Shown: positions 26,028-57,484 of the stretch, one piece after another
Layout: each line of letters starts with the position of its first letter
Numbering within the stretch: the stretch's first letter is position 1
Source of the DNA: Enchytraeus crypticus
Lineage: Eukaryota; Annelida; Clitellata; Enchytraeida; Enchytraeidae
Assembly (NCBI GenBank): GCA_905160935.1
Contig: CAJHZI010000642.1
Coordinates: 1,387,501-1,451,500, forward strand
DNA: 64,000 nucleotides
Reading direction: 5' to 3'
Notes under the pieces: model-generated
Told to the model about the DNA's origin: nothing
What the model saw: the letters and a program-made list of their open reading frames with translations, nothing else
Database searches by the model: none
Translations under genes and position numbers: made by a program

Positions 26028-26160
26028 CACATATATGTTTATATGTGTTTATAAGTGTTTAAATGTGTTTATTAGTGTTTATGTGTTACCAGGGTATTAC
26101 ACTACGAGTAAACGAGGACAATATGTGCATTGTGGCTAGAAGACTCATGTTGGTGCTTAC
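26028..26160 (+). pseudogene. Decayed duplicate of CASK PDZ exon 4 with its acceptor
   Basis: TTATGTGTTACCAG followed by GGTATTACACTACGAG at 26093 repeats the true intron end and exon start at 26232, 139 bp downstream. It encodes [16 protein letters not shown] and then diverges into a read-through open frame without a matching donor. A TGTTTATA-type repeat lies upstream of both copies. It could act as a decoy or alternative acceptor. Confidence 0.8.
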
Positions 26161-26231
26161 TTTGTGTTTATATATGTTTATATGTGTTTATATATGTCTA
26201 TATGTGTTTATTTGTGTTTATGTGTTATCAG

Positions 26232-26310
26232 GGTATTACACTACGAGTAAACGAGGACAATCAGTGCATTGTGGCGAGGATCATGCACGGTGGAATGATA
26301 CATCGACATG
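26232..26310 (+). CDS. CASK: CASK exon 4: PDZ domain, carboxylate-binding loop
   Basis: [20 protein letters not shown] then GMIHRHG, ending in phase 1 before CATG|gtttga. The GITL segment is the PDZ carboxylate-binding loop (GLGF equivalent) of CASK and MPP1 (known family feature). The IMHGGMIHR sequence is characteristic of these two proteins. Confidence 0.93.
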
Positions 26311-26539
26311 GTTTGATCTGAGACTTCCTTACACTCGTCGTCTTGTCTAGTTCATCTCCCAATATCTATAAATTTTTATATTAAATTGAGATCGCTATGC
26401 TGGCTCGCTAGGAGCCACGATCATGATGTACGCTGATTGTTCAATGAGCTGCAGATATTAACTTTATTTTATACAGTTTTAGGTTGTAATAACTCCAGTT
26501 TTAAATCGGCGCATAGTTTAAGTTTTGATGATTTAATAA

Positions 26540-26627
26540 CTAATTAGTAAGTGATATGAAGGAAAATGCTGGGGATAGAAATATGTGGAGGAATTATTTG
26601 GCTTGGGCCTACCCATAGGCAGTGCAC

Positions 26628-26680
<53 letters not shown>
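26540..26680 (+). mobile_element. LINE 3-prime tail copy followed by (GA)n
   Basis: AAAATGCTGGGGATAGAAAT, ATGTGGAGGAATTATTTGG, GGCCTACCCATAGGCAGTG and CACTAAGAGAGA continuing as about 22 GA units. Its first part translates as DRNMWRNY, matching DRNIWRSY of the element at 37690-38130. The GA repeat looks like the simple 3-prime tail. Confidence 0.65.
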
Positions 26681-26681
<1 letters not shown>

Positions 26682-26857
26682 TAAGTTTAGATTTTCAGAA
26701 TGTTATGGAATATTAATTTGGTAGAGTTTGAACTTATTGATTAGCGTGAGTTGTAAAGGAGGGTCTGATGCTTCCTCACTTCGCATAGTTTCTGATGCGA
26801 TGATCTACGTTCTTCGTTGCTCATATATCACGACGGTGTTGTGTATTGTACTCACAG

Positions 26858-26997
26858 GGTTACTTCACGTGGGTGATGAGATTTGTGAATTAAATGACAG
26901 CAGTGTTAGGTGTTGTGTATTGTACAGGGTTACTCCACATGGGTGAAGAGATATGTGAATTAAATGGTAGCAGTGTTAGGTGTTGTGTGTTGTACAG
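26858..26997 (+). repeat. Two extra 70-bp copies of the PDZ exon 5 head with splice acceptor
   Basis: Units starting at 26858, 26928 and 26998 (the true exon) repeat every 70 bp: CACAG or TACAG, then GGTTACTTCACGTGGGTGAT, GAATTAAAT and AGCAGTGTTAG. They encode GLLHVGDEICELNDSSVR, GLLHMGEEICELNGSSVR and GLLHVGDEICELNGSSVR. Only the third continues with GLSADVLQKTL and a donor. Confidence 0.9.
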
Positions 26998-27083
26998 GGT
27001 TACTTCACGTGGGTGATGAGATTTGTGAATTAAACGGGAGCAGTGTTAGGGGTCTATCAGCTGATGTGTTGCAGAAGACTCTG
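26998..27083 (+). CDS. CASK: CASK exon 5: PDZ middle part
   Basis: GLLHVGDEICELNGSSVR plus GLSADVLQKTL, phase 1 in and phase 0 out at CTG|gtcagt. LHVGDEI-E-NG is the conserved PDZ segment. The third of three tandem acceptors was chosen because only it joins to the downstream exon in frame and gives a PDZ of normal length; one of the two upstream acceptors could be used in principle but would give a frameshift or an altered insert. Confidence 0.9.
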
Positions 27084-27512
27084 GTCAGTAGAATCTATAG
27101 AACTTTTTTGTCTTAAATTTGTAATGCCCGTAAGGATTAAATGGATTCTACATAGCAACTGATTAAATAAAGGCGTTAAGTAAGATTTGTTTGTTTAATT
27201 TCTTGCCTTGTATATCTATGATTTATTGAAGAGAATAATCGCATAGTCTACTTCATAAAGAATATACTCTGGAGCCACTGTCAAGCAACTTGATTAAGTA
27301 AAGGTCAACAGATTTACTGAAGCTAAAAGATGTGTTTATTTGAGATGTTTGGTCAGGAACACTTTAGTGTACGAAACTATTTTTGGCTTGTTTTGTCTCA
27401 CGTACAAGAATTAGATCCTCTAGCGATGAATTGTGTGCTTAGAATTGTGAAATTTTGACATCTGATGTTCAGTGATGAAACTAACAGGATATATTGTGTA
27501 TTTCTGCTACAG
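27084..27512 (+). other. CASK: CASK intron 5
   Basis: Begins GTCAGT, ends GCTACAG. Unique AT-rich sequence; no repeat or exon recognised. Confidence 0.7.
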
Positions 27513-27581
27513 AGAGATGCTAGAGGTAATGTTACATTAAAGATAATACCTAGTCATCGAAATCCACCATCTAAATGTGAG
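27513..27581 (+). CDS. CASK: CASK exon 6: PDZ end
   Basis: 23 codons, phase 0 on both sides: RDARGNVTLKIIPSHRN then PPSKCE, with donor GAG|gtttgt. RG-(I/V)T-KI-PS is the last PDZ strand in CASK. The variable linker that mammalian CASK has between this point and the SH3 (a known alternatively spliced part) is absent. Confidence 0.9.
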
Positions 27582-29244
27582 GTTTGTTGATTTACTCTAA
27601 AATTCTATAGATAATTAGTAATACAGCCTATCCTTATTCGTCATAATTCACATCTTCTATTCATTAAGCTACACTTATGAAAGTATACTATTATACGCAT
27701 TAATTATTTTACGCAGGATTAAACAATACTGTTTAATCCTGCTTGTAATATCAATGGGCGACTGAAACAAGTTTCACATGGAGAGAAGTAGAAAGTTATT
27801 TGGTGATCTATTTAGGATCACCTGGCCGTTCGGAACAGCTATGTCCTAACAACTGAGGTGGCTGTATTCACGTATCAAATCAATTTTTCTGTGATCAAAA
27901 CATTAAAATCTGAAATTTATAGTTGTTGAAAATAGAGCAAACGGAGATTTATAGGGTGGTAAAACATCTAGAATACATTTACTCCTTTTATTGTTGGATT
28001 TTTATATTTTTATTTTGTATTATTACACACATGACATACCGCATGTGCTACATAGTTTCCTTTCTTTGTTGCTCTTTGTAGTTTTCGTTATTTTCACCCT
28101 TTTCTTCTCTTATTAGTATCGTTATCGTTGCCTTTTGTTGGCGCTCCAATAGCAGCTGGCGCGGATTTAAGAATACCCTCCAATACCCTTGGGATAATTT
28201 ACATTCAAAGCCGTCGACAATCGGTTCTCTAGAGTGGTCGCTCACAATTTACTAACCGCGTGCAACGTGACTTTACTTCGTTCAATTGACGCGCAGCGTA
28301 ACCGAATGCACTAAATTCCCTCAAAAAAATTGCGAAATCCCCTCTTTGCTTATGAAATTTTGTGGCCTCTGAAATTGATGATCTAAACAGCTCGGTGTGT
28401 AGAGGATCGAGTAACCTTAAATTTTTAATGTCTGTTCCTGAGGTCGTGGAATCAATTCCGATGGAGCCAACAGATAGCAATATCTCGGACATTCATAGGA
28501 CAGGTATATTGGACAGTTGGCTTTAAACTGCCACATGGTTAAATACGTGATATTATATGTGATGGATATTGTCATGGATAATCATTCACTGTACTGTATA
28601 ATACGTGCTTTAACTTCTGGGTAAGTTATTTCTTAGCCTTCTAAAACAGCAGCCGATGTAAACATCTCATGTGAGAATTGGTTGTGTCTAGCTTCCTTAT
28701 TCCTAGCGGCATAACTCTGCCCAAATGAAAGAACTGCCACCCAAGCTACCCCCCACCCAATCTAAAGAAATTTGTATTGAATATTTAGACAAATCTATTA
28801 ATTCTTTACTAATATAATTTTTGCATACGAGAATAACGCATGCGTGGTCTCTGTACTGCTTTAAAATATTTTTATCATTGATGGGCATACGTCAGAGCCG
28901 TTAGGCCTGTATGTCCTTTTTTCACGTCGCTTTTGCATACTGTGTTGTATCTTAGTGCTTTCATGAAAATAAAGTATTTCTATCTATCTAATATCCACTT
29001 TTGCCTTATTCATTTTTATACTCTGTAGATATATGTGTACTCTGTAGAGTGTAGATATATTAATACTATGTAGATATATTAATACTATGTAGATATATTA
29101 ATACTATGTAGATATATTAATACTATGTAGATATATTAATACTATGTAGATATATTAATACTATGTAGATATATTACTACAATGTAGATATATTACTACA
29201 ATGTAGATATATTACTACTCTGTAGATATTTTACTACTCTGTAG
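27582..29244 (+). other. CASK: CASK intron 6
   Basis: Begins GTTTGT and ends in a 19-bp tandem array whose last unit is the acceptor. A 13-bp-stem hairpin lies at 27713-27742. Two overlapping minus-strand open frames at 28048-28492 (87 and 65 aa, in different frames) match nothing I know. Otherwise no recognisable content. Confidence 0.7.
29022..29244 (+). repeat. 19-bp tandem array ending at the SH3 exon acceptor
   Basis: TAGATATATTAATACTATG repeats so that TAG falls at 29052, 29071, 29090, 29109, 29128, 29147, 29166, 29185, 29204, 29223 and 29242: eleven copies at exactly 19 bp. The last TAG (29242-29244) is the splice acceptor. A diverged copy lies near 29026. Late copies carry ACTACTCTG, the true acceptor sequence. 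Confidence 0.92.
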
Positions 29245-29626
29245 ATATTTGTGAGGGCGCTGTTCACCTACGACCCCTCGGAGGATGATCTGATTCCATG
29301 CGCTCAGGCTGGAGTTGCCTTCTCCATCGGCGACATCCTTCAGGTCATCAGCAAGGACGATCACAACTGGTGGCAAGCCAGGAGGTGGGAGGCGCCTTGC
29401 TCCGAGAGTACCGCCAGAATTCCCGGGATGGAAAGTACAGGCAGAATTTCCGGGATGGAAAGTACAGGCAGAATTTCCGGGATGGAAAGTACAGGCAGAA
29501 TTCCCGGAATGGAAAGTACAGGCAGAATTCCCGGCGCTGAAAGTACAGCGGGTCTGATACCCAGCCCCGAGCTGCAAGAGTGGAGGGCAGCGTACTCAGC
29601 AGTGAAGCAGTCTAAGTGTAAATCTG
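29245..29626 (+). CDS. CASK: CASK exon 7: SH3 domain with in-frame minisatellite insertion
   Basis: Starts [19 protein letters not shown] after CTCTGTAG and continues [18 protein letters not shown], the SH3 core with DDHNWWQ of CASK. After SESTARIPG come four repeats of MESTGRI(S/P)G, then [17 protein letters not shown], the last SH3 strand. The 27-bp repeat thus inserts about 45 residues before the terminal strand, apparently copied from the host segment STAGLIPS. The exon ends in phase 1 at TCTG|gtaagt. The insert would enlarge a loop rather than break the fold, if translated. Confidence 0.9.
29400..29545 (+). repeat. 27-bp coding minisatellite
   Basis: Five copies of GGAAAGTACAGGCAGAATTT plus CCGGGAT with few differences. 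The length is a multiple of three and none of the three forward frames has a stop, which shows as three parallel ORFs. Confidence 0.9.
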
Positions 29627-29725
29627 GTAAGTGGCTAAGAAGTTCAACAGGGGCATGAAAGCGTTTTTAATTTTCATGGCAAATATTTGTAATTTTCTAA
29701 GTTTTCTTTCTTTCAAATATAGACA

Positions 29726-29794
<69 letters not shown>

Positions 29795-30030
29795 TTTTTT
29801 GCTTATATTACGCTTCATATTAACTCTGGATAATAGGTGTTCAACTAGAAAGAACGAGTCCTCTTCTCTTTAATGGCCTATTGTTCGTGTATTTATTAAT
29901 GATTGGATTGTTAAAATGTTTGTGTGTATTTTGCATTCTTTTTGCTTGATTGTATGCATTTTATGTGACGTTTTTCTTCTCTTCTTCTTCTTCTTCTTCA
30001 TCTTAAATTATTGGCACATTGTGTGTGCAG
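29627..30030 (+). other. CASK: CASK intron 7 with (TA)n
   Basis: GTAAGT to GTGCAG, containing a TA repeat at about 29730-29790 and a TTC/CTT tract next to the acceptor. No other feature. Confidence 0.75.
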
Positions 30031-30201
30031 TGCACTGCGCGTGGTTTGGACGTAGGAAGAAGCGAGACAGTAGGGTGGGAGTGGGTGTAGGAGGGGGGTG
30101 TGGTGGTGGTGCTGGTGGGGGTGTGGATGATCTGGACGTGGTCAGCTATGAGGAGGTCGTCAGGCTGCCAGGGTTCATGAGGAAGACTCTTGTACTACTA
30201 G
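30031..30201 (+). CDS. CASK: CASK exon 8: hook (basic cluster, glycine-rich) and GUK start
   Basis: Reads HCAWFGRRKKRDSRVG, then a glycine run (GVGVGGGCGGGAGGGVD), then DLDVVSYEEVVRLPGF and MRKTLVLLG. In vertebrate CASK the basic CTWFGKKKK hook (protein 4.1 binding) is followed by about a dozen conserved residues before the DLVTYEEV segment; here glycine replaces most of them. The exon ends in phase 1 at CTAG followed by gcaagt, a GC donor. GGT codon completion with the next exon (G|GT) supports that exact boundary. Confidence 0.88.
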
Positions 30202-30264
30202 GCAAGTCTCATCAACTGAGCTGCTCAGTTGTTGTTGTCTCTCTCTCTCTCTCTCTCGTTCTCT

Positions 30265-30310
30265 CTCTCATTTCACTGCCCACTGGCAGCTTCATGGTAC
30301 ATAACGCTTC
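30265..30310 (-). mobile_element. LINE/SINE tail fragment
   Basis: CACTGCCCACTGGCAGCTTC followed by ATGGTACATA is the reverse complement of the shared tail (TATGTACC-GGACCTGCCAGTGGGCAGTG). Only about 40 bp remain. Confidence 0.5.
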
Positions 30311-30474
30311 CACTCTTCTCTGTCTTCTGTTTTCCTCTTCATGTCCACATACGAGACTACGAGTGGATCTTCAAATCATCTAACATGATATACCATTAAT
30401 CTTTTTGTTGTTGCATAAGTTCTTTAATCAGGTTTAACTAATAGAAGTGTAAATCTGACAGACCAAGAAACAGA

Positions 30475-30945
30475 TAAATCATCCGACATAATATCTGACT
30501 CAACATCTGACACAGCATCTGACACAACATCTGACACAACATCTGACACAACATCTGACACAACATCTGACACAACATCTGAAACAACATCTCACATAAC
30601 ATCTCACACAACATCTCGCACAACTTCTGACACAAAATCTGACACAACATCTGACACAACAGCTGACGCAACATCTGACACAACATCTGACACAAAATCT
30701 GACACAACGTCTCTCACAAACAGCTGACGCTACATCTGACACAACATCTACACAACATCTGACACAACATCTGACACAACATCTGACACAGGTAGCACAA
30801 CGTCTTAAAAGTATCTGACACGACATCTGACACAACATCTGAGGTTGTCAAATCATCTATACAACATTTGACGTCTGGCACCATATCTGATGCAACTTCG
30901 GAAGCAACATCTGACACAACATTTGACATAAAAGTCCGACATCAA
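30475..30945. repeat. Satellite of 12-bp unit ATCTGACACAAC
   Basis: About 30 copies of ATCTGACACAAC with scattered variants. The unit is the exact reverse complement of GTTGTGTCAGAT, the subunit of the array at 12880-13435. ORFs across it are repeat translations. Confidence 0.9.
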
Positions 30946-31215
30946 ATCTGACATAGCAACATAAACTTGTGTTAGCCCAAGGCTAACGTTAATTTTGTCT
31001 TACAAAAGGATGACAATGGCTACAGAACTTCGCATACCATTTTTTAAAATTCCCTTTTATTTTATACACTCGAAGTTAATATTTATTATAAGTGTTTTAT
31101 AAGAATATAATAAATTTACTCAGCTGTATAAAGTGTTGGTTTGAAAGTTGTATAATTTACTTATTTATCTAAAGCGAGAATTGTGCGAAGACTAATGATG
31201 TGATATGATGTGCAG

Positions 31216-31296
31216 GTGCGCATGGTGTTGGACGACGACACATAAAGAACACACTGATTCATCTTCATCCTAAGAGATTCGCCTATCCCATTCCAC
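31216..31296 (+). CDS. CASK: CASK exon 9: degenerate P-loop of GUK domain
   Basis: [20 protein letters not shown] and FAYPIP, phase 1 in and out (CCAC|gtacgt). GAHGVGRR replaces GxxGxGK: the catalytic lysine is missing, as in other CASK/MPP proteins. Confidence 0.93.
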
Positions 31297-32267
31297 GTAC
31301 GTTGTTCATTTTATTGTATTATTTTATTTTGTTTGTCGTTCTCACGTCACGTCATATCATCTTTTGGCATGCATATATAGAAATATATATCTAAGTATAC
31401 ATCTAAAATCATGTGTAATTACATATATTATGTCTCTAATTAATTATCAATTGAATGATCCGTAGAATTAAACTCGAGTTTTAATTTCGTTTAAATTCTG
31501 GCAGCTTCAGGTTTGAACCTACAAACTGAATATATGCGTCTGCTGTTATTTCCCTGTATTTGTTTGGGAAAGCTCGAGTTTTTTGGCCGAAACTTTGCGT
31601 TTTCTATTGATAAGTGCAGATACAGTGCTATGCAGATGTCATGTCTGATTGACTGATTGATTGATTTGTATGCACTGCACTTTAGTTGTGTATAATGTAT
31701 ATAATTTAGGGTGAACGCTTGTTTACTGTGTATTTATTTGTAGATGTTCTTCATTAGGTGTAGTTTTGTGACATGTATTTCACTAGATGCAATATATTGG
31801 TATATATGTAAATGTATTTCATTGTTGCCAAATTGTAAATTTGTGCATAAATATTAAATATGTTATTATAATCAGTATGTATTTATTTACTATTTTGGAA
31901 TTTAGTACAAAACGTATTTGGTTTCTATGTATATGACTGGATGCATAAATATGAGCTTCTGTTAGTAGATATAATTTCTCTTAAATATCTGTGGAATATC
32001 GTTGTTTGCACATATATTGCGTTAAAGACAAAACACACTACTCCAGCCTTATGTCAATATCATCATCATCATCCTCCCTTGAATCCCAGTTTGACCAGGG
32101 TCTGGATACAAATAGTCTGTCTCAAATTCTCTCTGTCCTACACCACATCACCATCCAAACCCCTATTTGAGACTTCCATTACGTCAATATACAATAGTAA
32201 TATGTAGTTGTCTGTATAATACTATAAACACAGCTAAATGTCCTGCCATTTATTGACCTATGATTAG
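31297..32267 (+). other. CASK: CASK intron 9
   Basis: Contains a reverse GAT-tail SINE fragment (about 32050-32175: CATCATCATCATCC, CCAGTTTGACCAGGGTC, TACACCACATCACCATC). The rest is AT-rich unique sequence. Confidence 0.7.
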
Positions 32268-32470
32268 ATACAACGAGACAGCCGGTCCCGGGTGAAGAAG
32301 CGGGCAGACAGTTCCAGTTTGTGACGCACGAGCAGATGATGGCTGACATAGCGGCAGGTAAATACCTCGAGTACGGCACGCACGATGACGTCATGTACGG
32401 CACTAAGATAGACACTATTCGAGCGATCCACGCTAGCGGCCTTATAGCCATACTGGATGTGGAGCCACAG
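32268..32470 (+). CDS. CASK: CASK exon 10: GUK nucleotide-binding-like region
   Basis: Encodes [58 protein letters not shown] and IAILDVEPQ. (H)TTR-P, EYG and MYGT and LD-EPQ are conserved GUK landmarks. Phase 1 in, phase 0 out at CAG|gtaagt. Confidence 0.95.
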
Positions 32471-33865
32471 GTAAGTGTGCTGCTGTGGATGCATTTCCAT
32501 TTGTCTGCCTGATAGATAATTAATAAGAATCATGTTAGCTCTATTATGTATATGTTTTTGTTTATGTGCACTTTGCTTAATTGTAAAGCAGCATACAGTG
32601 TTGTTGTGAACATTTAAGCGCGATTATTAGTAAAGCAATTGCTTTCGTCCTTGGCGAATAAGGGTGATTAGTAGCAAAGTAAGTATTGTTAGTCATGCTA
32701 ATCATAATCATAATAATCACCATCAGTTCCTTGCGTTCTGTTACATAGGCAACATTCCTCCATTATTTTCTGGCTTCAGCAACCCTCACAGCATCGTTCC
32801 ATGAAATGTTCAAAGTTTTCAAATCTTTGTTGATCGTGTTGAATCTAGTACCTCTAGATATTCCTCTTTTCCTTTTTCCATAATAATAATAGTACACTTT
32901 CATTAACTGTAGTGAGTTGTTTATTTAATTGATGTAGAAAATGTTGCACTGGCTAGTAGCTACTAATCCTATTTCGGCCTAATAGTGAGGCAATTGTTGT
33001 TATACTTACATGTAACTACATTTATAATTAACCAGTTAATGTATTTACCGAGAGAATTGTCTGAGTAATAAATATTGAAGCAGCCTTATGTTTTTCTGCT
33101 AGTGAAGAAACATAGCTGAAGCATATTATAACTATTACAACACATTATGACTACTTTCAAGTCAGATTTCATTTGAATTTTAGTACCAGTTATGAAGAAT
33201 AGTCGATCCTATTTTAAAAGAAGCAAATTGAGAAAGTTATTATTTACATATTTGATTACCTTAACTCAACGTTGGCCTTTGTGTATTGGTTTCTATTATT
33301 GTAGCTTGCCATACTAGATTTTCTTTTTATTTCTATTATATTGCTTTTTGACTTCATCAGCTACTGGGTACTGAAAAAGATGTAAGTAGTTATACTATGA
33401 AACCAGTGATTGTTGTGCTAGGCAATTTTAAACTGTTCGTATCGTTTATTTAATTGTAGATGGACATGTATGTAGCAATATATTTTTATATTTTAATATG
33501 CAAGTTTGACTATTCAATTTGTTATGTAATTAATTGATTGATTTATTAATTAAAGTTCAAGGTATTCATTTGTTCTCCTTTCGCTTTGCGTTAAAAGTGT
33601 TTTGTCCTTCATTGTAGCTTTTGTTAGTTTGTAATTAAATATAATTAAATATTATTATATTCTCATTCATCAATACTACGTAGTACATTATTTTTCTATT
33701 ATTTGTTATGTTTTTGTTATATATTTCTAGTTTTTGTTTAATATATCTGTGAGTATTCAGTTGGGGTTGATGTAGCTTTTAAGAAACTGTATTGTTGCTA
33801 CATCAGTTAACGTATATTTTTAAATATTTCTTGCACAATATTACTATATTATTATATAGTAATAA

Positions 33866-33992
33866 TATAGGAAGTCGGTAAGATATTCGACCGCGTATCA
33901 GTATGTGTGGGGTGCAAATCCTGGGCTCGCCCGTCACTGACATCGCTTTCGAGTGAGGAAACTGACGTTAACCTTAGCTTTACCAGCTTTAT
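33866..33992 (+). mobile_element. tRNA-like SINE copy, TTCGACCGC family
   Basis: The best preserved of three copies: GTCGGTAAGATATTCGACCG, GTGTGGGGTGCAAATCCTGG, GCTCGCCCGTCACTGACATC, GAGTGAGGAAACTGACGTTA. The GGTGCAAATCC segment fits a degenerate B box. Confidence 0.7.
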
Positions 33993-34289
33993 ATGAGACA
34001 TGTTTTGGCGGTTGAACAGCACGTGCTATAATTTTGATTGAAGAAGAACATGAAATGAAAGGTCGAGATTAGGGGTGTTACATGATTTTTTGCATATTTG
34101 GTGGTAGAAGTAAGCAAACCAGAGAAGTGAGAAAGTGGAAAAACCGATAGAATGAAATAAGTTTTTGTTAATGTCACTTTATAGTAATGATTTTAACACC
34201 ATGCACTGCTACTACGATTCGTTCAAACCTGACTATTTTATTAGAGAAATGAAAATAATATGCTCTCATACTCGTAAGTTGGATTTTAT

Positions 34290-34425
34290 TCCGGTTGGAT
34301 GTTCATATAGACTGCACGTTTACCTAAGTGCTGGAGACCCCATCGGTTCGAATCCCAGCCGGACCGTCTCTGGCAGTATCTCTTGTGACACGGAAACAGA
34401 CGTTAAGTTTTGTTTAACTTGATAG
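34290..34425 (+). mobile_element. tRNA-derived SINE copy with B box and GACGTTAA tail
   Basis: AAGTGCTGGAGACCCC, then GGTTCGAATCCCAGCCGG (canonical pol III B box) and TGACACGGAAACAGACGTTA. Upstream, TTTACC may be a remnant of the A box. No complete tRNA cloverleaf can be drawn. Confidence 0.65.
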
Positions 34426-34584
34426 GCTAAGAAGTTGTTGCCTACGCTAAGACCGCTTGTCTAAACGTAGTTTAGAGATAAGCTAAACTGTATGGCTTCT
34501 GGAATGATTTGTCTTTGGCTGCCTCATTATATACGTTAGTCTACTCTTTGTTGCATTTCTGCTTATATTTAGCCTGATTGTAGC

Positions 34585-34735
34585 TATAAAGCTTGGAAAA
34601 GGCATAGCCATTGTTGAAGGGATTGGCTGATTGGTGTATGGTGTGCTCTTTATAGGGCTTGAAAACGTCTCCGTGTAACAGAATATACTTTGAACCGTCC
34701 ACTTAGCAGTACTCACAGAGAGAAAGATAAGAAGA
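34585..34735 (+). mobile_element. SINE-like copy with LINE-type tail (degenerate)
   Basis: TTGGAAAAGGCATAGCC, TGAAGGGATTGGCTGATTG, TATACTTTGAACCGTCCACTT and AGAGAGAAAGA follow the order of the copies at 25490 and 51440. Confidence 0.5.
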
Positions 34736-35243
34736 GGGAAAAGGAGAGCGAGAGGGAATAGTAGCCAATTTGCATAACATTTAGTGAATATGCAATGCAA
34801 AATGAGTGATTTAGAGTAGGAAAACTATTCATGTTTGTATTGTAAAGTAAATTATGTAGCTTTGCCATATTTTCAAGTGTAGTTAAGAACTACAAAGGAT
34901 AGTAAATAATTATTTAATAAGTAATTATTTTAAAATAGAATAAAATAGTAATTTTTGTAAACAATACTGAAAAATCATGATTGCGAGACTAGATTGCCAC
35001 AGTCTAACTATTTATATCCTCATTCTAATCATTCATTTTATAACTCATCTTTTTTTGGCTTACAAATGTGGAATAGTATACCTAATTCTGTAAGAACTGA
35101 TGTAAGTGTGTACATTTATATAACTCACTCTAAATCTTACTTATTCACAAACTGTTAGTGTATATGTAAATAATTTCTACCCAATACTTTTACGGTGGAT
35201 AGCTAGATAGGACACTGCTATCACTGTTGAACGCTTGTATAGC

Positions 35244-35246
<3 letters not shown>

Positions 35247-35280
<34 letters not shown>

Positions 35281-35345
35281 GGTTTAACGTCCGTTTCCTC
35301 ATCCAGGGATGATATCAGGAACGTCCCCACAGCACACAGCACTAC
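35247..35345 (-). mobile_element. (AAT)n plus GACGTTAA-tail SINE fragment
   Basis: About ten AAT units, then GGTTTAACGTCCGTTTCCTC and GGAACGTCCCCACAGC, the reverse-strand tail region of the GACGTTAA families. Confidence 0.5.
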
Positions 35346-46460: not shown

Positions 46461-46474
46461 CTTTACTATCTTCT

Positions 46475-46830: not shown

Positions 46831-46949
46831 GGGTAACTTTACTATATACTATAAATATTGACATTCTGTGCCACTGTGTTTTGATTATATTTCCTTATGT
46901 AAGTCATTGATACTCTCATTTCATATTTCAATAAATTTCTGATATGCAG

Positions 46950-48206: not shown

Positions 48207-48642
48207 GTAGGGTTTAAGTTAATAATTGTAATTGTAGGTATTTTAAACTTGCAGACGATTATAATTTCAAAGTCAGCTATCTTAATAATTGATCGATTGA
48301 GCTTTTAAACTTTTTTTCTTTTTGAACTTTTTTAGCTCACCGGCTTATATTTGTCTCAATAGTGCTCGATGTTGTCATTGATATTAGTAACACTTTAATT
48401 GTTATTATTATTATTATTTCTATTTTAATTGCTACTTTTTTTACCCTGGGTGCAAAGAACCCGAGGTTTGATAAAAACGATTCAAGCAATATGTGCTGAA
48501 TTGCTTCCAGTCTACTGGAGACCATCTAACTGCTTAAAAGAATTGCTGAGCAGACTGCATTAAATATTTGCAAAGTTATGAAAGCCTTTATTATTATTAT
48601 TATTATTATTATTTATTATTGTTATTATTGTATTATTATTAA

Positions 48643-48682
<40 letters not shown>

Positions 48683-49247
48683 TTTTTTTAATTTTACCCC
48701 GGTGTAAAGAACCTGGGGTTTGATAAAAACGATTCTTATTATTATTATTATTATCATTGTGGACTTCCAGTATCCATAACTTAACATAGTAGACCTATAG
48801 CAGCCATAGCGGATGACAAAAATATGCAGATAACTTTAAAAGATAGGGCCTATAGCTATGTATAGTTCTGAGGAAAAAATAAATGGAGAACCTGAATAAA
48901 TCAAGAATAACGTTATAATATGCAAGAGTTAAATAACTCTGTGAGTATGCATTATCAGATTAAATTCATCAAAATTAAATATAGCCTATATAAAACATCA
49001 CAAGAAGTATATGCATACTATAGTATCACTTAACAATGTGCAATTAGTCAATATTATAGAGAAAGTGAAGATAACGCCAAAAGAGAGTTTAATGGTCGGA
49101 AGGAGCAAGTACCATGAGTACAAAAATTATGATTTGTTAAAAAATATTGATTTACTATTATGATTATTATTATTATTTATTGATTATGATTGATTAAATT
49201 ATGAATTTACCGCTATCTCATTACATGCTCATTACCTGTGCTCATAG
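48207..49247 (+). other. FAM161A: FAM161 intron 3
   Basis: A copy of the TTTTGTCTCAATAGTG repeat (48310-48400), two copies of CCCNGGTGYAAAGAACC-GAGGTTTGATAAAAACG (48445-48475 and 48690-48740), and a long ATT repeat (48590-48680). Confidence 0.75.
48310..48745. repeat. Interspersed repeat cluster with (ATT)n
   Basis: GGCTTATATTTGTCTCAAT, AGTGCTCGATGTTGTCATTG, ATT tract, CTGGGTGCAAAGAACCCG, AGGTTTGATAAAAACGATTC, ATT tract of about 90 bp, then CCCCGGTGTAAAGAACCTG and again GGTTTGATAAAAACGATTC. Confidence 0.8.
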
Positions 49248-49455
49248 CTTCAACGACAGCAGCAGTCCCTGGCACTAGAACACGCTGGGGAGGTTTTGCC
49301 ACTGAACCAATGGGGAGGAGCCAGTCTATGACACACCTCCAGGCTGCAGGAAGCCCCGCCGATCATCAGGAGACAGACAGGAGCCGCACCGTGTCGTGGA
49401 AGAATAGGATCACAATACCGGAACCATTTCAAATGACTCTAAGAGAAAACAGCAG
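49248..49455 (+). CDS. FAM161A: FAM161 exon 4: start of the conserved domain
   Basis: ASTTAAVPGTRTRWGGFA, then SWKNRITIPEPFQMTLREN. (V/I)PEPF-MT-RE is the first FAM161 hallmark. Phase 1 in, phase 2 out (AGCAG|gtgaat). Confidence 0.93.
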
Positions 49456-49614
49456 GTGAATCATCTAGTTCTTGAATCTAAACTATTGTGTGTTGAGTAT
49501 AATAATTCGAGATTTATGCGAATAGTGTTAGATGGTTCAGATATTTTTCTTTGAACGTAAGTTAACTTTCGTGTGTTTTCGTGGTTGAAATTTAACAAAA
49601 AATTCCAGTCATCC

Positions 49615-49765
49615 TTTTAAATTATCTCCATCATCGTGGGATACGAATAGACTTTCATTTTTTCATTCGTTTTAGAAAATTTTGTTGCAATTTCTAAAGC
49701 ATAGGCACTCACCGACCGAATGCTCTTTCTGATGTTGGTTTGGATCTTATTGCCTAGTTTTTAGG
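49615..49765 (-). mobile_element. SINE-like copy of the GAT-tail family (partial)
   Basis: GTGGGATACGAATAGAC, GACCGAATGCTCTTTCTGAT and GTTGGTTTGGATCTTATTGC align to 42800-42960. Confidence 0.6.
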
Positions 49766-49857
49766 CCGGTATCCATTTAAATTTATTAACTAAATAAATC
49801 ACTGTTATTGAGCAGACGTTCATTGACTGAATCCCCATTTGTCACTCCGTGCAGGTG

Positions 49858-50112
49858 CGCTGCAATTATACACGCATTATAGTGAAATGATCAACCATTT
49901 TGATATCTATCACTTTTAATACCACGTGTTTAAACCGTTAGGCAATTTAGACCATTTTCCGTATAACCAGTCTATTGAATGTCCGAGATTTTACTCTCAC
50001 ATCAGCGCGGCTGGGATTCGAACCCACGAGGGTTCAGTTCACCTCAAGGTCTGTCATTTAAAACGTCATGACGCTATGTACATCTCTAACCATTACGCTA
50101 TCGAGACATTCA
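49858..50112 (-). mobile_element. tRNA-derived SINE copy (AATAGCGCAATGG family)
   Basis: CACGCATTATAGTGAAATGA, CCACGTGTTTAAACCGTTAG, GAATGTCCGAGATTTTACTC, TCAGCGCGGCTGGGATTCGA, ACCCACGAGGGTTCAG and TTACGCTATCGAGACATTC. The last parts are the reverse complement of the tRNA-like head. Confidence 0.8.
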
Positions 50113-50156
50113 AACATTAAATTAAACATTTTATATTAAACATATATTTCGTGCAG

Positions 50157-50342
50157 ACCTAGGACGCCGCACAAGACGCGCGCGATGCAGGACGTGGAGG
50201 AGCGGCGTGCGGCGCGTCAGAGAGCCTACGAGCTCGAGTGTGAGAAGAAGTTCAAGGCCACGCCTCCTCCTGCCCACATCTACGTGCCGCTCTTTGATGA
50301 ACTGATGGAAGAACAAGAGCGAAGGAGAAGTGAAACACGCAG
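50157..50342 (+). CDS. FAM161A: FAM161 exon 5: FKATPPP motif
   Basis: MQDVEERRAARQRAYELECE, KKFKATPPPAHIYVPLFDEL, MEEQERRRSETR. FKA-P-P-H---PL-(D/E)---EE is the strongest FAM161 signature. Phase 2 in and out (GCAG|gtatga). GC-rich compared with its surroundings. Confidence 0.95.
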
Positions 50343-51024
50343 GTATGAACTATGGCTGTATGCAGTAGTAGTTCAGATCTACAGCATAGTGAATGACAGT
50401 GTGCATATATAGATGCATTTAGCTTTTAGAGAGACAGTTCTGATTATTATTGTAGATAATATCTACTTCGTCTTCACGTGCCCTTACGGGATTGGACTCG
50501 ACGAGAGTCGATTTAGCTGATTTCTTGAGATATGTTGTAGAATTTGGTGCTTAGCTAATTATATTTTATCATACTAAGGACAACACAAATTAAATTAAAT
50601 TTTTTTCGATGTCTCTCGCTAAAATTAGTTAAGCTAATATGTATTGAAAAGTATAACCATATTTTTTATTGATGTAAATTTTAATTGATTTGATTAGTTT
50701 TTTTATTTAGAAAATTTTGGTAACTGAGGGTTGTGCTAATCGAAACGCCACGGTAAGGTTACCTAATGTTCAAATAAAATTTATTTAACAGAAAATTTCA
50801 GAGGCTAACCTATCCTCGCCCTCCCTCCTCCCCTCTGTCAAACCTGTTCTGCTATTGATATTATGGCTGTTTGTTATTGCCATTATGTTAGGAATTATAG
50901 ATTATTTGATCTGAAACGCCTTTTTAAAGTATAGAGATACATTTGCATGATATACTCTATTAAGCATTAAATATTTTAATTCAGGTTTTTTCAGTGATTA
51001 TTAATTTTGTTGCTACTTAACTAG
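50343..51024 (+). other. FAM161A: FAM161 intron 5
   Basis: GTATGA to ACTAG. Unique AT-rich sequence, nothing recognised. Confidence 0.7.
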
Positions 51025-51169
51025 GAAAGCGGCAGAAATGCTTTTAGCCACTCAGAAACCTTTTCAAATGTCAAAGAGGGATGAGCAAGAGCTGGAGAAG
51101 AAGAAGAAAGAAGCTCCAGTGATTCGTAAAAGCATCGAGGCCACTGAATCTGCTAGGACTCTGTTCAGG
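51025..51169 (+). CDS. FAM161A: FAM161 exon 6
   Basis: KAAEMLLATQKPFQMSKRDE, QELEKKKKEAPVIRKSIEA, TESARTLFR; phase 2 in, phase 0 out. ELLA-Q-PF-- -(R/K)-E is a conserved block directly after FKA-P-P. Confidence 0.95.
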
Positions 51170-51439
51170 GTATATAATTCTAAATCTCGATACCAATTCT
51201 GCTTTCTCTCTCATGTTTTATCTCTATCTCCATTTCTCGCTCTTAAATGAATTAAATGTTTACTGAGTCTCTAGTGGTGCGCTAATTAGTGTGCCTCTGA
51301 TTTGCAGTCCTATCAGTCATTTAAGTAAATACATATGAAATCTTCAATGACCTTTATAATATGTTTTATAATATTAAAGTATGTTCTTTTTGGTTTTTTA
51401 TCTGGGCCACTGAAGATTTATAGAACAATCGTAAACTGC

Positions 51440-51645
51440 ACGTGTTGGAAGAGGCACTAAGCAAGAACCGAGAAAGCACCTCAGAAAGGAAACCACCTCA
51501 GAGACCATTATTCCCAATTAAGGCATAACTTTATGAAGGGATAAGCTCTTTGATCGATGCTATTCTCTTTATGGAGCGTGCCAGCAGACTACGAATAGTA
51601 ATAGGTACCTTGGACCTGCCACTTGGCAAAACAGAGAGGAAAAGT
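51440..51645 (+). mobile_element. SINE-like copy with LINE-type tail
   Basis: GTTGGAAGAGGCACTAAGC, AAGAACCGAGAAAGCACCTC, AGAAAGGAAACCACCTCAG, AAGGCATAACTTTATGAAGG, GTACCTTGGACCTGCCACTT and GGCAAAACAGAGAGG. Similar block at 5200-5250. Confidence 0.65.
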
Positions 51646-51776
51646 ATGTTCTAGACGACATGGCAAACCTTTATGAAAATTATGGCAGTTGTACTTCTAT
51701 TTTACTTTTCTAATCATCACTTTGTTGATATGTTCAAACTATAGATTTTTATGCAATTAGCGCAATCAAATACAAA

Positions 51777-51777
<1 letters not shown>

Positions 51778-51852
<75 letters not shown>

Positions 51853-51872
51853 TCTATATATATATATATTAT
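51778..51872. repeat. (TA)n microsatellite
   Basis: Two or three TA tracts with AATA and CATC interruptions. Confidence 0.95.
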
Positions 51873-52002
51873 TTTTAGTGGATTATCTAGTCTTTACTGG
51901 TTGTGTTTGAATGGACACAAGACTGGCAAATAGTTTTTGCAACCTAGGATGAATATCTTGTTTAATTCTTCTTAATGAACTGCTGTATTTGTGAACTCAT
52001 AG

Positions 52003-52172
52003 GCTAAGCCATTTCCGGAGCACCTGTTTCAGGGACTAGTGACGAGGAGCAGTTCCAGGGCACAAGCAAAGAAAGAGCCACGTTCTGCCTCTCTGCCTCG
52101 ATCAATGGAGGGGCGTGGTTATGGTTCTACCCCTGGACCTGTGAAAAAAGTACAACATAAGCAGGATTACAG
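52003..52172 (+). CDS. FAM161A: FAM161 exon 7
   Basis: AKPFPEHLFQGLVTRSSSRA, QAKKEPRSASLPRSMEG, KKVQHKQDYR; phase 0 in, phase 2 out (ACAG|gtgtga). FKA-PFP-H-(F) repeats the style of exon 5 and is conserved in the family. Confidence 0.92.
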
Positions 52173-52599
52173 GTGTGACTGTCTGCACATTGATGTGTAG
52201 TGTATTGTATTCATCTTATGCATATTCTATTCTATATGAATACTGTGTAATTGTATTTATTAGTATTGTTTTTGGATCAACGAACCTGTGTCATTTAGGA
52301 TATCATATTTATTTCTTTTCAACACATGTCTTTTCAGATCGTTTTGGTAAAGTAATATTATTATTTATTATAATATTTTTATTAAAGTAGTATTGGTAGT
52401 ATTGTTGGTAGTAGTTGTGTCGTCAACTTTCAAAGCAGCTATTGCTCTACATGTCTTCTATCTAGTGAAGATCTAAATGGCATTGTTTAAAGTCTTATAA
52501 CTTACTTTTAATACGTGAGATGGGATGGCAGATAGGATGTAGTTAAGAGAGTTTGGAGGAAGAGATGGCGGTTAAGATAGAGAGAGCTAGACCACAACT

Positions 52600-52870
52600 G
52601 AAGAGGGATGCGGACGTTAAATTAAGTATTACTAAAATAACCTAATAGGGGATTGATTGACTGACGATACAGTGTGCGACAGATAGAAATGGAAAAGGTC
52701 TATTCGTATCCAGGCCATAGTTGAACTGTGATTCAAGAACAGAAGAAGATGATTATGATGATGCTGATGGTGGTGCTGGTAGTGATTGTGATGGTGGCGG
52801 CGATGGTGATGGTGCTGGTGATGATGATGATAATGATGATGATGATGATAATGATGATGATGATATTCAG
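52600..52870 (+). mobile_element. SINE tail fragments with GAT repeats
   Basis: GATGCGGACGTTAAATTAAG (52606-52625), GGGGATTGATTGACTGACG, TATTCGTATCCAGGCCATAG, TGATTCAAGAACAGAAG and about 100 bp of GAT/GGT repeats, i.e. both tail types in succession. Confidence 0.55.
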
Positions 52871-53029
52871 GTTATAAGCAATTACAACATACCGTGAACC
52901 AGTTTTTGTTTATGAGGCTGAGTTATCTTAAAAGTTGAAGTCTGGTACTTTTGGAGTTCGATTCAAATGTTTTCAGACAGAACTGTTTTTATCGGCACTA
53001 TTAAGAGGATATGTATTTGTTGTAGTTGT

Positions 53030-53480
53030 GTCGATTGGGTGACATGGTATAGTGACATGATAGAGTGACATGATGAGTGACATGATGGGGTGACACGATG
53101 GGTGACATGATGGAGTGACATGATGGGTGACATGAAGGAGGGACATGATGGGTGACATGAAGGAGTGACATGATGGGGTGACACGATGGGTGACACGATG
53201 GGTGACACGATGGGTGACACGATGGGTGACACGATGGGGTGACACGATGGGGTGACGTGATGGGGTGACGTGATGGGTGACGTGACGGGTGACACGATGG
53301 GTGACACGATGGGTGACACGATGGGTGACACGATGGGGTGACACGATGGGGTGACGTGATGGGGTGACGTGGTGGACACGATGGGTGACACGATGGGATG
53401 ACATGATGGGTGACAGGATGGGTGACATGATGGGTTGACATGAATGATGGGGTGACATGATGGGTGACATGATGATAAAT
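53030..53480. repeat. Satellite, 12-13 bp unit
   Basis: About 35 copies of GATGGGTGACAC or GATGGGGTGACA. The 146 to 176-aa ORFs on the minus strand are repeat translations. Confidence 0.92.
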
Positions 53481-53674
53481 GATGGGGTGACACTATTTCA
53501 CAACAGGCATCAGCTGATGATGACTTCTCATTAATTAGCTTTTTTCTATTTCACTCGCTCATTAGACTAAAATTTAACAGTTTTTGCAAAATGCAGAACA
53601 GCACTATTTTAAGCTAAAAATTACCAAGCTATAAAGTGTGCTCAGTTGTATCCTCTATTGATGTTTGTTTACAG

Positions 53675-54198
53675 TTTTCAGCCGAAGATAAACCGGTCTA
53701 TACCGGATCTGGACGAGCAGTATCGAAAGTTTGTGCAGTCTGTAGAGGCTGGTAGGAAACACTCTCAACCCAAGTCAACGAGATGTCAGCCCTTCAACCT
53801 CTCTGACTCTCAGCGTCCCTCCAGTGTCCGCAGTGCAGGCAGCTCAGCTCGTCGTCGTCATCGAGTGACCTACCGAGAGCCTGATGTCACTATCCACTAC
53901 CACACTGCCGAGCCCAGGAGAAGTAGCGGTAGCGGCGTGAAAAAAACCTCGTTGAGTGGTAGCAGCGTGAAGAAAATCACTGTGAACGGTAGCAGCGTGA
54001 AGAAAACCGCTGTGAGTGGTAACACGTGGAGTGGTGGTGTCAATAGAACATCACACGGCGGTAGGAGTGGAGTAGGGAGGAGAGGAGGAAGTAGGTCAGA
54101 CAGTGAGTCACGCAGCAGGTCAAGCAGTAGGACAGGCAGTAGGACAGGCAGTAGACCAGTTAGCAGGACTGTTAGCAGGCCACACAGTGCTATGGCAG
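53675..54198 (+). CDS. FAM161A: FAM161 exon 8: INRSIPD motif, KK octapeptides, SR-rich end
   Basis: SFQPKINRSIPDLDEQYRKF VQSVEAG is the conserved P-IN-SVPDF-LH-KF block of the family. Then come repeats of (G)SSVKK(T/I)(A/T)V(S/N)G at about 53935-54030, and a DSESRSRSSSRTGSRTGSRP tail. Phase 2 in, phase 1 out (GCAG|gtaatt). The second half looks like recent low-complexity growth. Confidence 0.93.
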
Positions 54199-54600
54199 GT
54201 AATTATACTTAATACAGCAATTTATGTCTTCTTCTTTACAGTATATTTGTCAGAATTTAGTTGTGTTAACTATTCTACATATACAAATATAAATAATGTG
54301 ATTACTGTAATAGACTTTAGCTCTAAAATGTATTTCTCTTTTTAATTTTATAAATAGGGAATAGGAATTTTATTAGAATGTTGAGGCAGTAGGACAGGGA
54401 GTAGACCAGTTAGCAGGATTGTTAGCAGGCCACACAGTGCTATGGCAGGTAATTATTACTTAATACAGCAATTTATGTCTTCTGCTTTACAGTATTTGTC
54501 AAAATTTTGTAATGTTAACTATTTGACATCTACAGATATAAACAATGTGGTTACTGTAATAGACTTTAGCTCTAAAATGTATTTCTCTTTTTTAATTTTA
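54134..54600 (+). repeat. Tandem duplication of exon 8 end, donor and intron start (offset 250 bp)
   Basis: 54134-54350 and 54384-54600 are near-identical: GGCAGTAGGACAGG, GTAGACCAGTTAGCAGGA, GCTATGGCAGGTAATTA, ACAGCAATTTATGTCTTC, TTTAGCTCTAAAATGTATTT. The second copy has a GGCAGGTAATTA donor but no clear acceptor in correct phase, so it reads as intronic. Confidence 0.92.
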
Positions 54601-54744
54601 TTCCTGTTACTCCTTTTGCCTTTTTCATGCTTCTTATGCAAATAGGAAATCTTAGAATTCAATGCTGTTGATCGATTGACTGATCTAAGGAGGTACTGAT
54701 AGATCGATAGATGCTTGATCTATTGATTGATTGATTTACCCTAG

Positions 54745-54826
54745 GCACAGGTGTATGGACTCACTCACAGGACAGTCTACCTGCTCGTATGACGAGGGCG
54801 GCTCAGCAGAGAACTCTCTCTAATCA
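54745..54826 (+). CDS. FAM161A: FAM161 exon 9 (short)
   Basis: GTGVWTHSQDSLPARMTRAA then QQRTLSN(Q), phase 1 in, phase 2 out at ATCA|gtacgt. The (TR)A-QQR-L segment leads into the coiled coil of exon 10. A near copy of the donor side lies at 54987-55010. Confidence 0.8.
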
Positions 54827-54895
54827 GTACGTTCTCTCTCTCCTCTCTCTCTCTCTCCTCTCTCTCTCTCTTTCTCTCTCTCTCTCTGTCTCTCC

Positions 54896-54950
<55 letters not shown>

Positions 54951-55015
54951 GTCTCTCCCTCTCTCTGTCTCTCTCTCTCTCTCTCTCAGAGAACTCTCTC
55001 TAATCAGTGCGCTCT

Positions 55016-55047
<32 letters not shown>

Positions 55048-55064
55048 CCTCTCTCGATTCTCTA

Positions 55065-55143
<79 letters not shown>

Positions 55144-55295
55144 CAAGAGACAACGATAACTGATAACCATGAAGAGGAAAAGGACGAAATAACGAAAACT
55201 ACATAAACAGCAACCATAAGAAAGGAAACTCTACTGCATATGCGTATGACATGTGCGTAACTGTACGGAATAAAAATTTAAAAAAATATATACCC

Positions 55296-55341
<46 letters not shown>

Positions 55342-55516
55342 CATTAGATATATAACAAAGACAACGTTTACTAATAATCATGCAAGGGAAAAGAATGAAA
55401 TAATGAAATCTACAAAAACAGCAACCATAAGAAAGGAAACTTAACTGCACATGCGTATAACTTGTGTGTACAGAATAACATTTTTGAAAGGATATACTTC
55501 ATTCTCTTTCTCTCTT

Positions 55517-55559
<43 letters not shown>

Positions 55560-55741
55560 GTATACAGTGTAGTATGTGGTACAAGACATGTAACTGACCA
55601 TTTGTCATCCGATAATGATGGGCGTGTAAAGTGGTCGTTAGAATATTAAACTTCACCTTGTATGTTATGTTACTGTTGGAATATTTAACTTTACTAAAAT
55701 AGTATTATTATTGGAATATTAAATAGTTTTATTGTGCGTAG
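54827..55741 (+). other. FAM161A: FAM161 intron 9, mostly microsatellite
   Basis: CT tracts at 54836-54990 and 55011-55060, TA tract at 55070-55142, CT tracts at 55299-55337 and 55500-55558. The segments 55185-55290 and 55365-55490 are similar copies (CAGCAACCATAAGAAAGGAA, ATGCGTATRACWTGTG), i.e. a duplication of about 190 bp. Confidence 0.85.
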
Positions 55742-55906
55742 GTTGAAGAAGCAGAGGCAGTTAGAGAAGGAGGTTTACGAGGCTCGGTACAGGTCAGAGG
55801 CTGAGAGGAGGGACGATGCTATAAAGAGACTGATTCAGGAGAAAGCTGCTCTCAGTGGCTCGAACACTGGCAGGAGTGACCTCGATAACAGACTTAGACA
55901 AAAACT
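55742..55906 (+). CDS. FAM161A: FAM161 exon 10: coiled coil
   Basis: LKKQRQLEKEVYEARYRSEA, ERRDDAIKRLIQEKAALS, DLDNRLRQK; phase 2 in, phase 2 out. The donor AAAACT|gttagc is weak; it was chosen because CT plus A of the next exon (CTA) restores the frame into EEDRRRMRSY. Immediately after the donor begins an ATC repeat. Confidence 0.8.
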
Positions 55907-55914
55907 GTTAGCAT

Positions 55915-56148
55915 CATTGTATCATCATCATCATTGTATTATCATCTTCTATTATCATCATTATCATGGTATTATCATCTATTATCATCATCGTCATCAT
56001 CATTGTATTATCATCATCTATTATCATCAGTGTATTATCATCATCTATTATCATCAGTGTATTTTCATCATCTATTATCATCAGTGTATTTTCATCATCT
56101 ATTATCATCAGTGTATTTTCATCATCATTGTATTTATCATCATCTGCA
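55915..56148. repeat. (ATC)n microsatellite beside a splice donor
   Basis: TATTATCATCATCTATTATC repeats over 230 bp; gives spurious low-complexity ORFs on both strands. Confidence 0.95.
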
Positions 56149-56606
56149 TCATTTTGTCTAAACGACTACTCTCATGTTCTTTAAATAGACAGATCCCGAG
56201 GTTCAATCTGCTCATCTGCTCGTGTATTGAAGAGCATTGCTTCGATCAACCAGTTGAATCCATCGCATAGTGTTATTTATTAGTGTTAATTATTAGTGGT
56301 ATTTATTATTGTTATCTATTAGTGTTTTTTTACTCTTAATTAATTCTTCTGCTCAAGAATTTTTGGCTTTTGAGGTAGTTTCCTAGTTTTTCATCAGCTC
56401 CTGTTTAGTCTCCCTTTGGGAGTTTTGACGTCACTCGCGCACAAGCATTTAATGCATTTTATCTTTCTATTCTTATTTTGTGACCTAATGAATGACCTGA
56501 GAGTGCTATGTGTCTACAATATATGTATGTACGTGTGTTTGTATGAATGCGTATGTGTATGCTAGTATGTGTATGTACGTGTGTTTGTATGTGTGCAAAT
56601 GTGTAG
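56149..56606 (+). other. FAM161A: FAM161 intron 10, remainder
   Basis: A GGCTTTTGAGGTAGTTTC-like fragment near 56365-56410 may be a reverse piece of the LINE-tail SINE. Otherwise GT-rich sequence before the acceptor. Confidence 0.5.
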
Positions 56607-56706
56607 AGAAGAAGATAGACGGCGCATGCGCAGTTACAAGCAGCAGTTGAACGAGATGAACAAGAGACTACAGAACAGACCTCTGCTCATTGAACAAACC
56701 GCTCAG
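56607..56706 (+). CDS. FAM161A: FAM161 exon 11
   Basis: EEDRRRMRSYKQQLNEMNKR then LQNRPLLIEQTAQ, phase 2 in, phase 0 out at CTCAG|gtctct. (M)--R---RPLL-EQ-(A/S)Q is the family block preceding the NAK motif. Confidence 0.94.
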
Positions 56707-57097
56707 GTCTCTCTCTCATCTAATATCTACATGTATATTATCTTATCTTTAATCTTTAATTTATAGGTATTATCTTAATATCTATGAAATCTTATTAATG
56801 CTACTTCATGCTAATTATCAGAGTTTGGCGACAAGCCAACAAGTATTTATTGTAAATCATTGTCAATTAATTTAGGAGTATATTTTTGCTAATATACTAA
56901 TATAGGTATAGATATTTGCTAATGATAGGGAGGTTATAAAAGGAGGGAACGGTGGGTAAGAGAGTTAGCAGAAGATAAGACTGAGATGCTGAAAATGCTT
57001 TAATTCCTGTAGACGCTGTAGAGGTTAGGCATACTTGTATGTGGAAGAGTTTTAAATCATGTCATTGTTGTTGTTTTTTTTCATTGTTGTTCTTTAT

Positions 57098-57151
57098 TTT
57101 GCGTAACGTTAAATTTGATTAACGCTAAACAGAATGCAGAGAAATGCTGGA
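57098..57151 (+). pseudogene. Decayed partial duplicate of FAM161 exon 12 start
   Basis: TTTTGCGTAACG at 57098-57109 and AACGCTAAACAGAATGCAGA from 57121 repeat the true acceptor and exon start (57270-57306). 24 of 30 bases agree by eye at 57121-57150. Translation NAKQNAEKCW parallels NAKQSAEKRY. A 10-bp interruption and no donor make it non-functional. Confidence 0.75.
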
Positions 57152-57272
57152 TGATGTTTTCATGGTGGTTGTTGTCTTTCTTGGTTGCTGTAACGTCACC
57201 CTAGAAAGAGCGCTAAGAAGCACTGCGTGTTGTTGTCATGGATCATGAAGCGTGTTGTTGTTGTTTTTGCAG

Positions 57273-57484
57273 CGTAACGCTAAACAGAGCGCAGAAAAAC
57301 GCTACATGGAGACTCTGAGTAAGTCAGGTCTGGACATAGAGTATCTGAAGCGTCAGAGTGAGGGGGCGGGGCCTAGTGACGTGGCTCGTGACGTCACGTA
57401 TGACGTTGATGAGCACAACGAGACTTTCAGTGTTGGGGACGACTCTGACCGCGAGGCGGCGTCCAGTCGTCGTAGTGCTGCCAG
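57273..57484 (+). CDS. FAM161A: FAM161 exon 12: NAKQSAEKRYMETL motif
   Basis: RNAKQSAEKRYMETLSKSGL then DIEYLKRQSEGAG is the most conserved end of the FAM161 domain. A polar acidic tail (VGDDSDREAASSRRSAAR) follows; phase 0 in, phase 2 out (CCAG|gtgggt). Confidence 0.95.

Follow-up and report, generated by a model that had tools for sequence, protein, structure and literature searches.

The question raised by this locus is whether tandem duplications fall preferentially on the edges of exons. The stretch of DNA analysed, hereafter the window, comprises 64,000 nucleotides of the Enchytraeus crypticus genome (contig CAJHZI010000642.1, positions 1,387,501 to 1,451,500) and holds a CASK-type MAGUK gene (23740..36449, + strand) and a FAM161A/B-type gene (44449..57485, + strand). 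In an original prediction, eight tandem duplications were listed in these two adjacent genes, and it was argued that chance placement would not give so many hits at exon edges. All eight are legible in the sequence. The analysis described here suggests that tandem duplications may arise or persist preferentially at exon edges, and that this preference becomes visible when arrays are counted as events, not when repeat coverage is measured. The published genome report, according to excerpts, names study PRJEB41884 for its reads and genome and describes 910 scaffolds that total 525.2 Mb at 35.4% GC (PMC8460440); the assembly used here has 524 Mb in 802 contigs.

Loci outside the window were taken from a profile search of the genome, among whose listed matches were at least 128 kinesin, 137 protein kinase, 150 tyrosine phosphatase, 26 guanylate kinase and 77 UCH exons; scores cover only the top candidates in the larger families. 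From these, 45 kinesin, 30 kinase, 38 phosphatase, 8 guanylate kinase and no UCH loci were retrieved. The CASK locus of the window (L006), L041 and the mitochondrial or mitochondrial-like L009 and L010 were left out before counting, and the first sample consisted of 101 usable loci; of their 202 possible junctions, 65 acceptors and 70 donors (135 in all) were callable. Fifteen junctions were found within arrays reported by Tandem Repeats Finder (TRF). Thirteen of these were inspected, and in 11 of them an exon edge, its splice site and part of the intron are plainly repeated outward, the junctions of L022 and L040 being doubtful. The arrays include 43 bp x 5.6 at a kinesin donor (L105), 44 bp x 9.2 (L031), 43-bp copies at a phosphatase 'HC' donor (L073), 67 bp x 5.8 at an acceptor (L090) and arrays at kinase acceptors (L048, L067). 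A dot-plot test also flags L003, L019, L020 and L101, which lie outside the 15. Since arrays occur at the junctions of these other loci, they are a property of the E. crypticus genome and not peculiar to CASK and FAM161. The two adjacent genes are therefore not special: by nearly the same dot-plot test, the rate in the window (5/39 junctions) is like that of the sample (16/134). Arrays that merely abut a junction exist too; at one phosphatase acceptor (L122, 10-163), satellites stop at or just before the splice site without containing exon sequence.

The event yardstick was how many exon-side array ends fall, per bp, within the terminal 45 bp of an exon, compared with the density of array ends in introns. 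This is a fair measure because an array born in an intron should not gain exon sequence, as growth inserts sequence and does not overwrite it. For units of at least 20 bp running outward, 14 array ends were found at the 135 junctions, with 2.44 expected (5.7x, P 3e-7). For units of at least 10 bp the count was again 14 (3.98 expected, P 7e-5), and for units of at least 30 bp it was 12 (1.36 expected). When the raw ends of hidden Markov model (HMM) matches were used with no splice calls, 22 array ends were found against 5.65 expected, or 30 against 8.6 (175 edges) for units of at least 10 bp. A birth-unit model, which requires the original unit to extend at least 5 nt to either side of the junction, gave 13 cases where 1.8 were expected (ratio 7.2, bootstrap by locus 3.7-12.4). 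Strict counts drop the doubtful L022 and L040 and also L068, a paralog of L067; under this model 10 cases were left against the same 1.8 (ratio 5.5, bootstrap 95% confidence interval (CI) 2.4-10.7). Taken per bp, array ends in the sample outside the window exceeded the intron background by 3.5x to 9x.

For the replication, the test was fixed first and then applied to 18 further phosphatase exons, taken nearly in list order with 150-bp flanks. The 32 edges were judged by eye; the left ends of L108, L109, L120 and L121 were omitted, as the exon continues there. Four of the 32 edges were arrayed (the acceptors of L106, L110 and L113 and the donor of L117) with 0.58 expected (P 0.003), and three when at least 5 exonic bases were demanded (0.40 expected, P 0.008), the array of L106 reaching only 2 bases into the exon. 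In the two sets together, 18 arrayed edges were found among 167, where 3.0 would be expected; 15 are left after removal of the two doubtful cases and the paralog. The proposed enrichment at exon edges is thus upheld outside both genes by event counts (14 vs 2.4; replication 4 vs 0.58) and not by raw coverage, for which the window gave 5/39 vs about 10%. The duplications had also been said usually to start at or near a splice site; they begin not at the site itself but 2 to 94 bp inside the exon.

The arrays were compared with one another, and 20 of them were aligned all-against-all by blastn (L022, L040, L072, L103 and L117 were not included). Apart from the paralogs L067/L068 and a simple run of 21 bp, these 20 proved unrelated. 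The idea of one mobile or satellite family recurring at splice sites is therefore not supported, and since units are unrelated between loci, the junction arrays look independent in origin. Moreover, the phosphatase arrays of L073, L075 and L117 sit at the same profile position (177-178, the 'HC' donor), and no alignment between them exceeds 15 bp (E 0.17 or worse). Donors and acceptors of the 101-locus sample are hit alike (9/70 and 6/65). The spacing of copies is a multiple of 3 in just 5 of 20 arrays, with L117 substituted for the exon 12 copy of FAM161; no frame constraint on junction arrays was seen, and the extra copies are therefore probably spliced out, as their phase and position suggest. 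In the window, the duplications that straddle one exon edge (CASK exons 4, 5, 7 and the coding end; FAM161 exons 8, 9 and 12) have unit lengths of any phase, and the arrays that lie wholly within coding exons (CASK E3, E7 and E8 and two in FAM161 exon 8) have 3n units in 5/5 cases. The copies of exons 4 and 5 in the window and the sample arrays examined, judged by eye, contain one exon edge only and never a complete exon with both splice sites. Duplicated, mutually exclusive exons were rejected on this ground.

Several observations weigh against a preference for exon edges. TRF arrays make up 16.6% of the window, and because 17% of it is tandem repeat, the window junctions are not enriched by raw coverage: an exon-edge 24-mer is repeated outward within 300 bp at 5 of 39 junctions, compared with 9.5-10.7% of random positions, and TRF arrays with units of at least 10 bp cross two of the 39. 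(The E3 acceptor, exon F1 and the F10 donor are left out of these 39; three of the junctions, 56606, 31298 and 57484, were placed one base off, which should not affect the count.) The chance argument as originally worded therefore fails, since repeat density is so high that a random position in the window scores about equally. In the genome sample, 13% of which is tandem repeat, the 15 of 135 junctions within arrays of units of at least 10 bp (11%) compare with 10% of far intron (480+ bp) and 17-18% of near intron (30-240 bp). The dot-plot test, with 16 of 134 junctions, compares with 9.0% of pseudo-junctions overall and 15.7% of those at 100 bp. Part of the junction signal is a broad repeat-rich zone around exons: over the 101 loci, repeats of all periods cover about 23-25% of the sequence lying 30-240 bp from an exon edge, compared with 13% of that more than 480 bp away, and tandem coverage within 240 bp of exons is about 2x that beyond 480 bp (CI of the difference 0.037-0.162). 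The first 0-60 bp beyond the junction likewise show a raised number of array ends (13 in 8.1 kb for units of at least 10 bp). The arrays of L072 and L103 include only 3 exonic bases each, and these and the similarly shallow L106 (2-3 exonic bases in all) may be chance extensions. Furthermore, the excess depends on arrays being born at the junction and not overwritten. Of the three separate arrays inside sampled exon cores, only one is clearly 3n. The sample is small, its junctions are predicted from sequence, and its 119 exons in total come from four families chosen by the authors, the replication set from one.

The explanation tentatively preferred, to which we give slightly less than an even chance, is that exon borders are hotspots for the birth of tandem duplications. 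About a tenth of junctions would have been copied in this way, some of them often, by independent events that recur even at a junction homologous between paralogs, and the spliceosome would have to pick the whole-exon junction among near-identical decoys. On this view the genome is densely populated with private tandem duplications. Where such a duplication spans the boundary between an exon and the adjacent intron, one whole exon and a working splice site would be left; the extra partial copies would fall in the intron and be spliced out, as phase and position indicate, and any unit length would therefore be tolerated. We hold it quite possible, at a level just short of even, that a straddling duplication is silent because one whole exon with one working site remains, and that such births are commoner at exon borders. 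They would occur several times more often there than per bp in introns, and the arrays would then expand outward from the exon. The birth step itself is likely to be slippage, or a switch of template, between short direct repeats that the exon end and the intron start have in common.

This hotspot account is partly entangled with two others, of which simple tolerance is somewhat unlikely and longer persistence a little more so. Under simple tolerance there is no bias of birth: duplications would fall everywhere, straddling ones would merely be tolerated, and the excess would be an artefact of counting arrays and ends. The junction coverage, which is like that of introns, and the general density of tandem repeats in sample and window are what this account would predict, but coverage is the wrong yardstick if an array born in an intron should not gain exon sequence, and the event counts of 3.5-9x were replicated. 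Under longer persistence, arrays anchored on a conserved exon edge would outlast others, because selection would remove deletions that extend into the exon and would keep one copy constant, in contrast to the rapid turnover of introns. The twofold tandem coverage near exons fits this account. Against it, junction arrays are no more diverged than intron arrays when identity is taken as a proxy of age (P 0.77), a comparison limited by n=15 and by the partly conserved copy, which hides age; arrays with identity of at least 88 are enriched as well (7 vs 1.1 expected). The GC content of exon edges as a cause is not supported, since intron arrays are AT-richer than their introns.

Assembly error, which had been named as a possible refutation, is a highly improbable source of the arrays, since the copies are mostly several percent apart and the unit is different from array to array. 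In excerpts of the genome report, 80.6% of PacBio reads mapped back to the published assembly, a figure that would leave some room for such errors, against 97.7% of Illumina reads (PMC8460440). The arrays are about 45-500 bp long, which is short relative to long reads, and the CASK SH3 exon was found at a single position of the assembly, with no second genomic place detected by a search that skips simple repeats. Selection for spare splice sites, by which arrays would rescue damaged acceptors or donors, is also very unlikely. Splice dinucleotides are kept in 59 of 72 extra copies from sixteen arrays, more than the 68% expected from other sites, yet copies within an array are not independent, and in the ten clear arrays 40 of 46 copies keep them (82% expected from the rest of the unit). 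In L075, L090, L105 and L110, decayed sites stand beside intact ones. The repeated rescue of acceptors offered in the original prediction thus finds little support, as donors and acceptors are hit alike and the dinucleotides are kept only slightly above expectation.

Several splice sites in a row are also found in tandem alternative splice sites of the NAGNAG type. In E. crypticus the spacing is 17-250 bp and most copies hold exon sequence, unlike in such sites. That tandem duplication can create new introns and shift exon borders is well established, according to excerpts of two papers (PMC4974935, PMC2891723). Intron gains by tandem duplication, as in ATP2A1 and potato RdRp, resemble the present arrays in that a segment with splice signals is copied in tandem; in potato RdRp the duplicate copies an upstream intron-exon structure (PMC4974935). 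In contrast, no new intron or exon position is apparent in E. crypticus, whose partial copies would sit in an old intron, judging from frame and position, and often many-fold. In the Drosophila cases of intron sliding and exon duplication, short tandem duplications at proto-splice sites alter exon borders, and 5 of 31 novel intron positions are ascribed in the excerpt to tandem duplication within the reading frame (PMC2891723). E. crypticus differs from these in that roughly one in ten of the junctions sampled bears a multi-copy array, and nothing indicates that the border has shifted. The metallothionein genes of earthworms, likewise clitellate annelids, contain intronic minisatellites, and duplications of exon 4 are missing from the transcript (PMC12783039). 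Intronic minisatellites and duplicated exon pieces are thus common to both systems, and in E. crypticus, too, the exon pieces would be missing from the transcript; the earthworm units are about 180 bp and lie inside intron 1, and the passages available from that paper draw no link to splice junctions. A literature search, limited to the terms and library used, found no titles or abstract openings that report multi-copy arrays anchored on splice junctions at such a frequency. If exon borders do seed tandem duplications, E. crypticus would provide many natural, independent cases of how introns and splice sites originate by tandem duplication and of how splicing chooses among near-identical tandem copies. 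Annotation pipelines may report false partial exons in genomes of this kind.

Within the window, exon borders of both genes were read by eye, for CASK from AG/GT and frame. The CASK-type gene consists of a large exon, whose start is approximate, followed by PDZ, SH3 and guanylate-kinase exons; numbers E3-E12 follow the original prediction. Pfam SH3 and Guanylate_kin matched above cut-off and PDZ weakly, below cut-off, and the top PDB match of the guanylate-kinase exon is CASK (1kgd_A, E 1.4e-24). The arrays reported by TRF are minisatellites in the sense of head-to-tail units of 10-100 bp, some units being longer (up to 249 bp). Upstream of the intact exon 4 (26232-26310) lies a degenerate partial copy of the exon start and acceptor (26093..26160, +; AG at 26091-26092). 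The two junction copies are 139 bp apart and the upstream one is 95% identical at 22 flanking sites; this duplication was detected by self-comparison, TRF reporting only the adjoining 10-bp satellite. At exon 5 (intact copy 26998-27083), an array of 70 bp x 3.0 (26835..27050, +; TRF) crosses the junction, its unit consisting of the intron end, the acceptor and the first ~53 bp of the exon. The exon 7 acceptor array of 19 bp x 10.5 (29050..29248, +; TRF) has just 4 bp within the exon, which starts at 29245, and the AG is kept in 9 of 9 upstream copies found.

The interior of exon 7, the SH3 exon (open frame 29245-29658), contains an in-frame minisatellite of 27 bp x 5.3 (29407..29548, +; TRF), with a period that is a multiple of 3. 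The resulting 9-residue repeat splits the NWWQ motif from the GLIPSPELQ segment, and such an expansion within a folded SH3 domain is odd. At the coding end, an array of 45 bp x 3.0 (36406..36540, +; TRF and sequence) repeats the last codons and the stop (36447-36449), the extra copies lying behind the first stop. The array is as had been proposed, though not the copy number of four; TRF gives 3.0, and a fourth copy would be degenerate. Exon 8 ends at an apparent GC donor (AG|GCAAGT, position 30202) in place of GT, and the large exon holds an in-frame, glutamine-rich coding minisatellite of 21 bp at 24417-24579.

The FAM161A/B-type gene has exons F1-F12, of which F1 and the F10 donor are uncertain; Pfam FAM161A_B matches two of them, one above and one just below cut-off. 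Its exon 8 donor array of 249 bp x 1.9 (54134..54601, +; TRF) crosses the donor at 54199. The end of exon 9 and its GT (intact donor 54827) recur 180 bp downstream (54988..55008, +), with a (TC)n array between the two copies. The start of exon 12 is present in two diverged copies 155-171 bp apart; the upstream one (57101..57150, +) carries an insertion and has lost the acceptor AG, and the intact exon starts at 57273. In the intron before exon 8, ~450 bp (53033-53492) consist of a 12-bp TGGGTGACATGA-type satellite. Among the sampled loci, two neighbouring kinesin motor matches (L011 and L012, C252:65170-68659) have long open frames (848 and 521 aa) with an unbroken match and are possibly retrogenes.

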